Assembly (NCBI GenBank): GCA_937995665.1
Contig: CALKIX010000065.1
Coordinates: 1-40,206, forward strand
Reading direction: 5' to 3'
Length of the DNA: 40,206 bases
From: an uncultured Hellea sp.
Lineage (GTDB): Bacteria > Pseudomonadota > Alphaproteobacteria > Caulobacterales > Maricaulaceae
Shown here: positions 31,184 through 40,137 of the stretch, piece after piece
How positions within the stretch are numbered: position 1 is the first letter of the stretch
Layout: each line of letters opens with the position of its first letter
The notes under the pieces: model-generated
Databases searched by the model: none
Told to the model about the DNA's origin: nothing
What the model saw: only the letters and a program-made list of their open reading frames with translations
Translations under genes and position numbers: made by a program

Positions 31184-33259
31184 ATGGCTAATAAGAATCT
31201 CGACGATTATAAAAATATCAGTTTTTATAAAAAAAATTCAAAAGCACGTGACAATGGTTTCGCTAAATTCACTGAGGGAGATGAACATTATTTCGCCCTT
31301 TATAAAGATGGCGGCATCGCGCTCATTAGCCAAGCCTACGTTAATGTAGCAGGCCGCGATAATGGCATAGAGTCGGTTAAGAAAAATTCTAAATTAAAAG
31401 CGCGCTATAAATTTGATACGCGCGCAGGCACGAAACATGGCTTTAGCTTGAAAGCTGGCAATGGCCAGGAAATTGCTGTCAGTCCAGATTATGCCACTCT
31501 GGCCCAAGCGGAATATGTTGCAGGTCGTCTAAACGGTTCTGTGAAAGCCAAGCCTAAAGCTAAGCCGAAAGCTGCGGCAGCTGCACCGAAAAAGGCGCGC
31601 AAAGCCAATGATGAGGATAATTATCAGCGTCTGGCTTTTTATGAAAAGCACACAAAGGGCCGCAAAAACGGGATTGAAACTTTCAAAGGCGATGATGGAC
31701 TCTACTATTTTGCCTATTTCGAAAATAGCAAAATTCGCCTTATCTCAGAAGGCTATCCAACAAAAACTGCGCGCGATACGGGTGTGGCGTCTGTTGAGAA
31801 AAATATCAAAATTGAAAAGCGCTATGATTATCGCGGCCCGTTCAAAAATGGTAAATATGATTTCCGCCTAAAGGCAGGGAACGGCAAAGAAATCGCGCGC
31901 TCTATCTGGTACGGCTCCGCCGCTGCTGCTGCGACGGGCGCGGCATATCTTATGGGGACACGCAAACGAAGCGCGCCAAAGAAAAAACTGGCTGCGGCCG
32001 CCGTTGCAGCTGCTGCTGTTCCAGCCGCTGCTGTTCCAGCCGCTGCTGCGGCCTACCGCGCACCAGTGGATAAAGACGATGATTATCTAAAGTGCGAAGA
32101 ATATCACGGTCATAAGGTGACAGATAAAGTCAATAATGTTGCGTTCTTCTCCCATAAGAATAATCAAGAATATTTCGTGCTTTATGATGCTGATGGTGAT
32201 GTACGTCTGCGCAGTGAAGGCTTTAATTCAATCTCTAAGCGTAGCTCAGAGCTTGCCGCCGTCTTGCGCCTAAAAGATACAAAGTCAGCCTATAAGCGCA
32301 TCGAGAAGAACGGCTATTACATGGACGTTCTTTATGACGAAACAGGCCGCGAGGTTGGCCGCTCTTGTCTGCGCAAAATTAAGCCTGTCGTTGCCGCCGC
32401 GCCTATTGCTGCTGCTCCTGTGGCTTCCGCGGCAGCCGCCATACCCGCAGCCGCTGCCACAGGCGGCGGATTTAATTGGGGCTTCTTAAAATGGCTCCTC
32501 CCGCTCTTGCTCTTGCTTCTTGCGGCTTTGTTCTTGATGAAATCTTGTAAGCCTAAGGCGCCCGCGCCCATAGCGCTTGTCACTTGCTGGGATGGCAGTG
32601 AAGCGGAAGGGTTTAATGCTTGTCCCGACAAAGTAACGTGCTGGGATGGCTCTTTTGTTAAGCAAGCATCAAGTTGCGCGCCTGAGCCCGTCACATGTTG
32701 GGATGACAGCAAGGCCGAGACGCTAGAAACATGCCCTGTCAAGCCCGCGCCTAAGCCTGAGCCTGAGCCTAAGCCTAAGCCTAAGCCTGAGCCTGTCGCG
32801 CCTAAGCCTGCGTCAATTCCAGCGGGCTATCCGCTTTGCGGGCCATCTAATACGGCCATCTTTAATGTTCCGACATATCAGACGCCTGCAAATGTGAGAC
32901 GCCTTGGAACCTATCCTGAATTTGGGGATAGTCATGGGCTGAGCCCGCGTGAGTTTTATAACAAGTTACAGAGCCGTTATAATTCAAACAGTTTTGATGC
33001 GAGCTATCTCAACTATCTTGCGCGATCATTAGGTTATGCGGGCGGGTTTAGCGAGATGTCAGCGAGTGACTTCTCAAATGATACACTCGCCAAAGGGTCT
33101 AAGGGCTTGTTAGGCTATGGTGATCAACATGCTTATGCCTATTCACAGCTAAATGTAAGCTCATCACGTGATTTAGAAGCCTTCCGTGTCCGTGGGGCCA
33201 ATGGCCAAACGGTGCATTTTATGAAAACTTGCGGCAATTATATGTATGTCTGTGAGTAA
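31184..33259 (+). CDS. Tandem DUF1508 (YegP-like) modules + Ala-rich linker + TM helix + CWDGS Cys-repeats + novel C-terminal domain
   Basis: About 691 aa; three modules with YFALYKDGGIALISQAY / YFAYFENSKIRLISEGY / YFVLYDADGDVRLRSEGF; TM FLKWLLPLLLLLLAALFLMKSC; three TCWD[GD]S...CP repeats; KPEPEPKPKPKPEP; C-terminal about 130 aa. Confidence 0.8.
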   Translation: MANKNLDDYKNISFYKKNSKARDNGFAKFTEGDEHYFALYKDGGIALISQAYVNVAGRDNGIESVKKNSKLKARYKFDTRAGTKHGFSLKAGNGQEIAVSPDYATLAQAEYVAGRLNGSVKAKPKAKPKAAAAAPKKARKANDEDNYQRLAFYEKHTKGRKNGIETFKGDDGLYYFAYFENSKIRLISEGYPTKTARDTGVASVEKNIKIEKRYDYRGPFKNGKYDFRLKAGNGKEIARSIWYGSAAAAATGAAYLMGTRKRSAPKKKLAAAAVAAAAVPAAAVPAAAAAYRAPVDKDDDYLKCEEYHGHKVTDKVNNVAFFSHKNNQEYFVLYDADGDVRLRSEGFNSISKRSSELAAVLRLKDTKSAYKRIEKNGYYMDVLYDETGREVGRSCLRKIKPVVAAAPIAAAPVASAAAAIPAAAATGGGFNWGFLKWLLPLLLLLLAALFLMKSCKPKAPAPIALVTCWDGSEAEGFNACPDKVTCWDGSFVKQASSCAPEPVTCWDDSKAETLETCPVKPAPKPEPEPKPKPKPEPVAPKPASIPAGYPLCGPSNTAIFNVPTYQTPANVRRLGTYPEFGDSHGLSPREFYNKLQSRYNSNSFDASYLNYLARSLGYAGGFSEMSASDFSNDTLAKGSKGLLGYGDQHAYAYSQLNVSSSRDLEAFRVRGANGQTVHFMKTCGNYMYVCE
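32749..32794 (+). repeat. Hexanucleotide tandem repeat (GCCTRA)n within the DUF1508 gene
   Basis: About 7.7 uninterrupted copies of GCCTAA/GCCTGA encoding K-P/E-P dipeptides. Confidence 0.85.
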
Positions 33260-33280
33260 TCATTTTTAACATCATTGATA

Positions 33281-33307
33281 AAAGCCCCCATATGGGGGCT
33301 TTTTTTA
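33281..33307 (+). terminator. Rho-independent terminator AAAGCCCCC-ATAT-GGGGGCTTTTTTT
   Basis: Perfect 9-bp stem with T-run just 3' of the DUF1508 gene. Confidence 0.85.
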
Positions 33308-38144: not shown

Positions 38145-38834
38145 TTAACAGCTAGGTTTTCCCGCTAAAAAGCCGCAATCATATGTTGTGCTGCCTCCGC
38201 CAGCGCTGACATCAAATGTGACTTGAGCGGACTTACGCGGCTTTAACAAAAATGTGTCCGTCAAAGTCACCGCTCTCGGGTTTTTCGACAGAGGGGCAGT
38301 CGTATGGGTGTCTTCATTATAAGACATCAATGAAAATCTATAATCATATGCAACACGGGCCACAACAACGCCAGAGCTTGCGTTTAAGAGGCGCGCGTCA
38401 ATATCATTGGTGCTATATGCCTCTCCAAAGCTGCCACCTAATGTCGCTTGGCCATTAGTGACGATGTTACCATTCGTATCTAGAGAATAGCTCGTGATTT
38501 CGATATTTACTCGACTGCTATCGGGTTCTTCGAGGGTCAGGAGTACAGCATTCATGATATTTGACATATCGTCTTTTGTGACGCTTGACTTTTGCGTGGT
38601 CAAATCTCCTGCGACGTTAGCGGCATGAGAAACCCGCCGATCCTCGGCAATCAGAAGCGATAGCTCCGCGAGCCCTAGATACATTAAAATCATAATAGGG
38701 GCTACAAATGCGAATTCGATGGCTGCAACGCCCTCTCGAGAGGCGCGATAAGCTCTGACGGATTTTTTCGCCCATTCTTGGCTACTTCTGATTAAATATG
38801 TGAACACGTTATTCTCCTCAACCCCTAAGCGCAT
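38145..38834 (-). CDS. TadE/TadG-like pilus assembly protein
   Basis: N-terminal SREGVAAIEFAFVAPIMILMYLGLAELS prepilin/TadE-like motif. Confidence 0.82.
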   Translation of the reverse strand: MRLGVEENNVFTYLIRSSQEWAKKSVRAYRASREGVAAIEFAFVAPIMILMYLGLAELSLLIAEDRRVSHAANVAGDLTTQKSSVTKDDMSNIMNAVLLTLEEPDSSRVNIEITSYSLDTNGNIVTNGQATLGGSFGEAYSTNDIDARLLNASSGVVVARVAYDYRFSLMSYNEDTHTTAPLSKNPRAVTLTDTFLLKPRKSAQVTFDVSAGGGSTTYDCGFLAGKPSC

Positions 38835-39445
38835 GTCGGGCTCGTCCCAAGCGGAAAGGGCTCATTTTGGAAAGCCGTTGTACTATTAATTAGGTGAATA
38901 TTCTGGCCTGGCAAATTCTCAAGAAGTGTGAGCTGCTTAGGTAGAATAAGGCTATAATAGTATAGGCCTCTGACAACAACTGGAACATCGGCACTGGTTT
39001 CAACCAATCCAGCATATTCTCCATTTGGAATAGCAGGCGGTTCTGCATCGGGATCATCAGGGTCTGGCGCTGGTGGATTAGGCGGGGTAGCTAATACAAT
39101 TGAGCCGAAATTTGCACCGCTAACGACGTCAAGGCGGAGGCGGTTTTCGCAATCTCCGACAGAGACCATGTTGTTGCAAACCAGTTTTTTAAATGAAGCT
39201 TGTCCGCAATTTTGATAGTTACCCGTACGAATTTGTCGTCCAGCTTCACTTACTGCGAAATTTAGCGTCGAAGATATGAAAAATATAATGGCCAGCTCTA
39301 ATATCGCAAAAAGCAACATGAAAAAGGGCAGGGCCAGAAGTGAAAACTCTATCGCAGTTGCCCCCTCATTATCTTTTTTGAAGTTAGCAATTCTGTCTTT
39401 TAAATTTTGTCTAAAATCTATCATATCCCTTAGTCCCATAGGCAC
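38825..39445 (-). CDS. TadE-like pilus assembly protein
   Basis: DNEGATAIEFSLLALPFFMLLFAILELAIIFF; overlaps the downstream TadE/G gene by 10 nt. Confidence 0.85.
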   Translation of the reverse strand: MPMGLRDMIDFRQNLKDRIANFKKDNEGATAIEFSLLALPFFMLLFAILELAIIFFISSTLNFAVSEAGRQIRTGNYQNCGQASFKKLVCNNMVSVGDCENRLRLDVVSGANFGSIVLATPPNPPAPDPDDPDAEPPAIPNGEYAGLVETSADVPVVVRGLYYYSLILPKQLTLLENLPGQNIHLINSTTAFQNEPFPLGTSPTCA

Positions 39446-39552
39446 GCCTGCATGAAACTATGGCAGAGAGATTAACATTCACGTAAAGAATAGTCTTAAT
39501 AAAGAGTTAAGATTTGTCCTAATTGTTTAGTTTCTTGAGTACCTGCTAGGCC

Positions 39553-40137
39553 TTAGAACCCAGGTGAGGAAGAGAAACTTGACCCGCTACCATTTGGCGG
39601 CGTTGAAGATAATGACCCTCCCAGACTAGGTGAGCTTACAAATGATGTATTGGAGCCACCAAAAAGTGTTGGCGATGTTGAGGCCGCATTATTAGTGATA
39701 TTTTCGGCGGATCCTGAATTAGCGTCAATAAAACCTGGGCTATCGCCAAGAACAGGCGAGGGTAGGCAGTTTGGTGTACAGCTATAACTCTCGCGCACTT
39801 TACCATTATATAAGCGCACGCCGTGGCTTGGTTGTGTTTGAGTCACTTGAATATCAGCGTTTAAAATAGAATGGCCCTCAGCATTGAGAACAATGAGGTT
39901 AGTTTCGCCATACCCTCGGCCAACAACAAAGATAGTATTTGCAGAATGGATAGATATGTCTGCAATATTTGGATTACCTACGACAATCGCTCCAGCATTT
40001 TCAGGAAGATAAACGACTTCTGTCTTGTTTAAATCCACACTATAATGTTGACCGGCAAAGGCTGCCATTGAGCTGACGGTAAGACCCAGCACAGCAAGGC
40101 TGCATGAAATCATGTATTTTTTACAGCTAGAAATCAT
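39553..40137 (-). CDS. Standalone CpaC/RcpA N-terminal-domain (pilus assembly) protein
   Basis: Signal peptide; TEVVYLPENAGAIVVGNPNIADISIHSANTIFVVGRGYGETNLIVLNAEG resembles the secretin N-terminal (T2SS-T3SS pilus-N) domain; no secretin domain. Confidence 0.8.
   Translation of the reverse strand: MISSCKKYMISCSLAVLGLTVSSMAAFAGQHYSVDLNKTEVVYLPENAGAIVVGNPNIADISIHSANTIFVVGRGYGETNLIVLNAEGHSILNADIQVTQTQPSHGVRLYNGKVRESYSCTPNCLPSPVLGDSPGFIDANSGSAENITNNAASTSPTLFGGSNTSFVSSPSLGGSLSSTPPNGSGSSFSSSPGF

Follow-up and report, generated by a model that had tools for sequence, protein, structure and literature searches.

A C-terminal domain that alternates with OmpA_C may tether a membrane-anchored DUF1508 array to the cell wall in Hellea

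The gene at 31184..33259 (+) of the window, a 40,206-nucleotide stretch of DNA from an uncultured Hellea sp., encodes a 691-residue protein in which three DUF1508 modules are followed by a transmembrane (TM) helix, a Cys-repeat spacer and a C-terminal domain (CTD) that constitutes a new family, outside Pfam. As judged from the domain content of homologues, a single position is taken by either the CTD or OmpA_C in three scaffolds. The reading that we favour, with modest confidence, is that the window protein is a bitopic inner-membrane tether whose cytoplasmic DUF1508 array would be held to the wall via a CTD doing the job of OmpA_C. For the fuller proposition, that the CTD is a peptidoglycan-binding or wall-associated domain of unsolved fold which displaced OmpA_C, is shared (probably horizontally) between marine Saprospiraceae and Robiginitomaculaceae, and tethers a DUF1508 array, we would put the chances at about even.

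Architecture of the protein

The open reading frame starts with an ATG at 31184 and its stop codon ends at 33259. It is not a chance reading frame, since several relatives have orthologues at 41–68% identity over the full length; the whole-gene architecture is further defined by Pfam and by AF2 models. A sigma-70 scan, which says little in this organism, found no promoter-like site directly upstream of the gene. On the 3' side lies an intrinsic terminator-like hairpin with a 10-bp stem and a T-run at 33280–33303 (feature 33280..33306, +; the parts of this gene given below are all on this strand), in agreement with the suggestion that the gene has its own terminator.

DUF1508 is the sole Pfam match of the protein (E 7.8e-30, 103 bits against a cut-off of 22, in five stretches). 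Module 1 (residues 7–118; 31202..31537) and module 2 (residues 147–259; 31622..31960) can each be aligned by phmmer with a solved YegP-family structure, residues 31–107 with PDB 2k49 and residues 165–257 with PDB 2k8e (E 1.4e-8 in both cases). The membrane-proximal module 3 (residues 299–400; 32078..32383), delimited by sequence comparison and AF2, is a divergent subtype that shares about 30% identity with modules 1 and 2. In the AF2 model each of the three is a doubled b-b-b-a repeat at pLDDT ~80–93. Modules 1 and 2 are separated by a Lys/Ala/Pro linker (residues 121–146; 31544..31621) with pLDDT below 50, and module 3 is followed by an Ala/Pro/Gly-rich juxtamembrane linker (residues 401–433; 32384..32482) which leads into the predicted TM helix (residues ~434–453; 32483..32542). 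The latter is the one long hydrophobic helix of the protein by hydropathy, is modelled by AF2 at 434–451 and is conserved in the orthologues. Pfam, the PDB matches, hydropathy and AF2 therefore confirm what the sequence-only reading had described up to this point, namely three DUF1508 modules, Lys/Ala linkers and a TM-like helix. DUF1508 is also found fused to other proteins in Saprospiraceae, at the N-terminus of an S1-repeat protein resembling ribosomal S1 (L194:2174-4534, +) and at the C-terminus of a wax-ester synthase/DGAT (L189:1984-4230, -).

Beyond the helix are three CWD[GD]S-x7-C units (residues 468–518; 32585..32737), evident in the sequence and in AF2 and found also in outer-membrane barrel proteins. 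They begin at residues 468, 486 and 505, and each is probably closed by its own disulfide. Three CWD[GD]S-x-CP repeats had been described here; the number of units holds, but the middle one reads SSCAP rather than CP. A Lys/Pro/Glu stalk (residues 520–547; 32741..32824) then connects to the CTD (residues 548–691; 32825..33256), which was delimited by homologue searches, AF2 and alignment. The KPEP stalk and C-terminal domain of the earlier description are thus both present, although the domain is ~144 residues long and not ~130. In a full-length AF2 model built with 11 orthologues the helix and the C-terminal domain are present, the Cys repeats form three small units and the linkers are disordered; confidence in how the domains are placed relative to one another is low (pTM 0.27).

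A C-terminal domain outside Pfam

Residues from about 547 onwards are found again in further proteins encoded by the same genomes, as seen in a whole-protein search of 99 relatives. A barrel form of ~490 aa consists of a signal peptide, an 8-strand outer-membrane barrel, CWDGS or CPDGS repeats and the CTD, and a giant form of ~1900 aa, with a DUF11 domain and a large beta-rich part, ends in the CTD. Overall, the CTD terminates DUF1508-array-TM proteins, outer-membrane barrels and PD40 propellers. A Chitinophagales protein (L124:5088-8390, +) combines this anchor with another kind of cytoplasmic array, five helix-hairpin-helix (HHH_5-type) repeats followed by a TM helix and the CTD.

Searches of Pfam, NCBIfam and PDB sequences with the CTD gave no match, and 16 CTDs compared with Pfam gave only noise. 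An AF2 model of the CTD calculated from 30 sequences has pLDDT 96 and pTM 0.90, and Foldseek comparison of this model with the PDB and BFVD likewise returned noise only, with no PDB match at E < 0.05 and a best TM of ~0.21. The domain was accordingly rightly called unassigned, and its predicted fold appears to resemble no PDB or viral structure. The top PDB matches from Foldseek, CdiA-CT and a papain-like toxin, were rejected (TM ~0.2, E above 0.05).

The window's own genome encodes a giant of 1920 aa (G000 contig C39, L040:6147-11909, -) with DUF11-type repeats, a large beta-rich part and an appended CTD. In homologues of this protein the barrel-like part is the end (G009, G010, G027, G079) or the reading frame stops in the linker (G005, G008), as if the CTD had been gained or lost. 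The giant was considered as a fourth OmpA/CTD swap and rejected, as its relatives simply end at the barrel and the CTD is an addition.

Either the CTD or OmpA_C at one scaffold position

DUF1508-array-TM proteins of Saprospiraceae are found with either head. A CTD is present in L098, L126, L186, L197 and L199, and an OmpA head matching PF00691 in L185 (9e-15), L191 (2e-15), L193 (5e-20), L202 (7e-14) and L183 (1e-7); the PF00691 match of the OmpA head in L195 lies under the curated cut-off. Module 3 of the window protein is 54–57% identical to the last module of both CTD-headed (L098, L126) and OmpA-headed (L185, L195) proteins, and this similarity across two phyla with either head shows that the head has been swapped on one scaffold. 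The architecture, which the sequence-only reading had proposed to seek in other genomes, therefore exists in the orthologues and, with CTD or OmpA heads, in Saprospiraceae. In the Bacteroidota phylum sample there is another DUF1508-array-TM protein whose head starts OmpA-like (L286:1045-3207, +), and the OmpA-headed scaffold may thus reach beyond Saprospiraceae.

The same alternation is seen in the other scaffolds. At an alphaproteobacterial locus (L036), two barrel-CWDGS proteins that closely resemble each other are encoded by adjacent genes; one ends in OmpA (PF00691, 4.7e-15) and the other in the CTD. Thrombospondin-3 (TSP3) barrel proteins of Saprospiraceae end in the CTD in L116 and L119 and in OmpA in their homologues L271, L272, L275, L277 and L283, and PD40-propeller proteins end in the CTD in L125 and L149 and in OmpA in their homologues L256, L261 and L263; these OmpA-headed homologues were taken from the top matches and are not an exhaustive count.

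Topology

The window protein has no N-terminal signal peptide, a DUF1508 module starting directly at its N-terminus, and with its single TM helix it has the layout of a bitopic protein. We infer an N-in/C-out topology. In the alphaproteobacterial proteins the N-side carries a large positive charge and the C-side is near zero or negative in most, while the immediate flanks of the helix are ambiguous; in the window protein, the charges adjoining the helix are not enough to settle its orientation. The portion that follows the barrel is periplasmic in OmpA/OprF, and the CTD is placed in the periplasm because it occupies the post-barrel part of the barrel proteins. A probable disulfide between C552 and C690 of the CTD fits this location. 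In a Bacteroidota protein with the reverse domain order (L224:469-2043, -), a divergent CTD comes right after the signal peptide and is followed by a C-terminal beta-barrel-like region, an arrangement that again fits a periplasmic CTD.

Distribution and history

Across 84,980 species genomes a scan identified 101 relatives, the best 80 of which all belong to Robiginitomaculaceae/Caulobacterales (Hellea, Litorimonas, Algimonas, Robiginitomaculum) or to Bacteroidota (Saprospiraceae, Lewinella, Chitinophagales). The CTD is present in 37 of 137 genomes of the window's family, in 1 of 399 sampled Pseudomonadota (the window's own genome) and in 2 of 396 sampled Bacteroidota, one of the two being the query centre. 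It is absent from the plasmid and phage collections searched. The spread is therefore narrow: among the genomes sampled, the CTD occurs only in Robiginitomaculaceae and Saprospiraceae-type Bacteroidota.

In a tree of 93 CTDs diversity is higher among the Bacteroidota sequences, and the barrel copies from Alphaproteobacteria fall mostly in one clade (93/80), with most deep forks left open by the 142 alignment columns. This topology would fit a transfer between phyla, after which the domain spread among scaffolds within Robiginitomaculaceae; which way the transfer went is not proven, because the alignment is too short. The upstream neighbour is a rarA/mgsA-type ATPase gene in Hellea balneolensis (L222) and G010 (L223) as in the window, so the gene is vertically inherited in that part of the family. 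The downstream genes differ, and since only the upstream gene is shared the neighbourhood gives no function. Further along the window (38145-40137, -), TadE/TadG-like pseudopilin-type genes and a CpaC/RcpA-like secretin, recognised by eye in the translations, begin at the window end.

A proposed wall tether and its alternatives

Of the non-covalent wall anchors in Gram-negative bacteria, OmpA_C is one of the commonest. The OmpA_C head of the PD40-type protein PorE has been co-crystallised with a fragment of peptidoglycan (PMC7192894), and the stator is believed to be held to the wall by MotB-C (PMC3080404). Because the swap is read most simply in this way, the CTD is taken to do the wall-binding work of OmpA_C, and we infer that peptidoglycan is its ligand. 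The N-terminal 430 residues, comprising three YegP-type DUF1508 modules and their flexible linkers, would lie in the cytoplasm, where the array might act as a protein-binding scaffold (a guess). The single helix would cross the inner membrane and the spacer would then carry the 144-aa periplasmic CTD, which would grip the cell wall by non-covalent peptidoglycan binding, as OmpA_C does in the same scaffolds, and thereby fix the cytoplasmic DUF1508 scaffold to the wall much as the OmpA_C head of MotB fixes the stator. The function of the CTD is argued from position alone, because the domain has no similarity in sequence or fold to OmpA_C or to any solved wall-binding domain; position-specific replacement would also fit a CTD that binds another periplasmic partner. 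The CTD probably represents a novel means of attaching proteins to the cell wall.

The conserved residues of the CTD could point to another role, that of a periplasmic enzyme acting, for example, on peptidoglycan through C683 together with H649 and its neighbours, and not a passive anchor. C683 is present in 93/93 CTDs within the motif M-K-x-C-G-N (M and K are each changed once in the 93), and H649 in 91/93. C552 and C690 are jointly present in 82/93 and jointly absent in 5/93 (Fisher p 5e-5, shared ancestry ignored), the exceptions being mostly shifted cysteines and one sequence cut by a contig end, so that the two probably form a disulfide; C683 would then be the leftover, odd cysteine in most alphaproteobacterial copies. 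It is mainly because C683 is invariant, and H649 nearly so, that we keep the enzyme as a live rival, and the invariant cysteine leaves some room for chemistry. We nevertheless consider it unlikely: the CTD resembles no enzyme family or structure (best Foldseek E 0.05, TM 0.21), H649 is replaced by Ser and Gln in the two other sequences, C683 may be structural, and the heads that the CTD replaces are wall-binding.

The composition of the cytoplasmic part raises the question of whether the DUF1508 array and its H1-like Lys/Ala/Pro linkers bind nucleic acid and so link the envelope to the chromosome or to RNA. The cytoplasmic part is strongly basic in every alphaproteobacterial protein checked except one (~+4 to +13 per 100 aa), the Chitinophagales CTD protein has an HhH array of DNA-binding type in place of DUF1508, and in L194 DUF1508 is joined to an S1-repeat RNA-binding protein. 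The Saprospiraceae versions, however, are mostly near neutral or acidic (net -45 at the lowest, in L126), so charge-based nucleic-acid binding is not a conserved property. We regard this role as improbable; it would in any case describe the inner half of the protein only and is compatible with a wall-anchor head.

The sequence-only reading had pictured the cysteine-bearing head as part of a sensor, and a transmembrane redox or envelope-stress sensor, signalling from a Cys-rich outer head to the DUF1508 array, would fit the Cys-rich segment, the invariant thiol and a bitopic layout like that of signalling proteins. This view of the repeats is not supported, because the nearest orthologues, from Hellea balneolensis (L055, L056, L057), are without CWDGS repeats and carry an Ala/Lys-rich stretch in their place. 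The repeats also serve as a generic linker, joining barrel to OmpA or CTD in unrelated outer-membrane proteins. Judged by these comparisons they are an exchangeable spacer, and the conserved outer part is the CTD. Moreover, the window protein has no kinase, HTH, sigma or other output domain, and the same head is found on outer-membrane barrels without any cytoplasmic output. That the CTD takes the position of OmpA_C in several scaffolds speaks for an anchoring role and not for redox sensing, and we give a sensor little chance.

Least probable of all is a CTD-to-CTD connector, in which inner- and outer-membrane copies pair to bridge both membranes: inner-membrane, barrel and giant versions do co-occur per genome in Hellea and relatives, but 7 of 12 Bacteroidota genomes, as well as G014 and G024 of the window's family (all drafts), have a single CTD protein, so the partner of the CTD need not be another CTD.

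Piece-for-piece replacement of OmpA_C in several scaffolds amounts to a rare natural experiment. Wall binding by the CTD, if true, adds a wall-binding fold, and DUF1508/YegP, which is widespread but uncharacterised, would gain a physical setting as arrays under the inner membrane, tied to the wall. Among the open-access papers searched, DUF1508 is mentioned only in passing, and neither the CTD-headed nor the OmpA-headed array-TM form was found described there.

Comparison with known systems

Classical YegP/DUF1508 members are soluble proteins of ~110 aa. The modules of the window protein are likewise genuine DUF1508 double repeats (PF07411, UPF0339), in both profile match and doubled-repeat fold. 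The protein departs from the usual, though not strictly defining, small soluble stand-alone form in that it is 691 aa long, arranges its modules in an array and joins them to a TM helix and a periplasmic-type head.

Bitopic wall anchors of the MotB/PomB type similarly have an inner-membrane helix followed by a C-terminal wall-binding head, a role that is predicted for the head of the window protein. The window protein differs from them in its long cytoplasmic DUF1508 array and its different head, and no ion-channel partner is seen.

Compared with OmpA_C-like proteins (PF00691: OmpA/OprF, PorE, MotB), the CTD holds the same position in barrel, propeller and TM scaffolds, that is as barrel-linker-head, PD40-head and cytoplasm-TM-head. 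It is unrelated to them in sequence, giving no PF00691 match where the adjacent OmpA homologues do, and apparently also in fold, as the pLDDT 96 AF2 model and Foldseek against the PDB give no sign of an OmpA_C fold. The nearest relatives in layout are the DUF1508-array-TM-OmpA proteins of Saprospiraceae (L183, L185, L191, L193, L195, L202). These have the same scaffold as the window protein, with a module 54–56% identical to module 3 in L185 and L195, and differ in bearing an OmpA_C head where the window protein bears the CTD.
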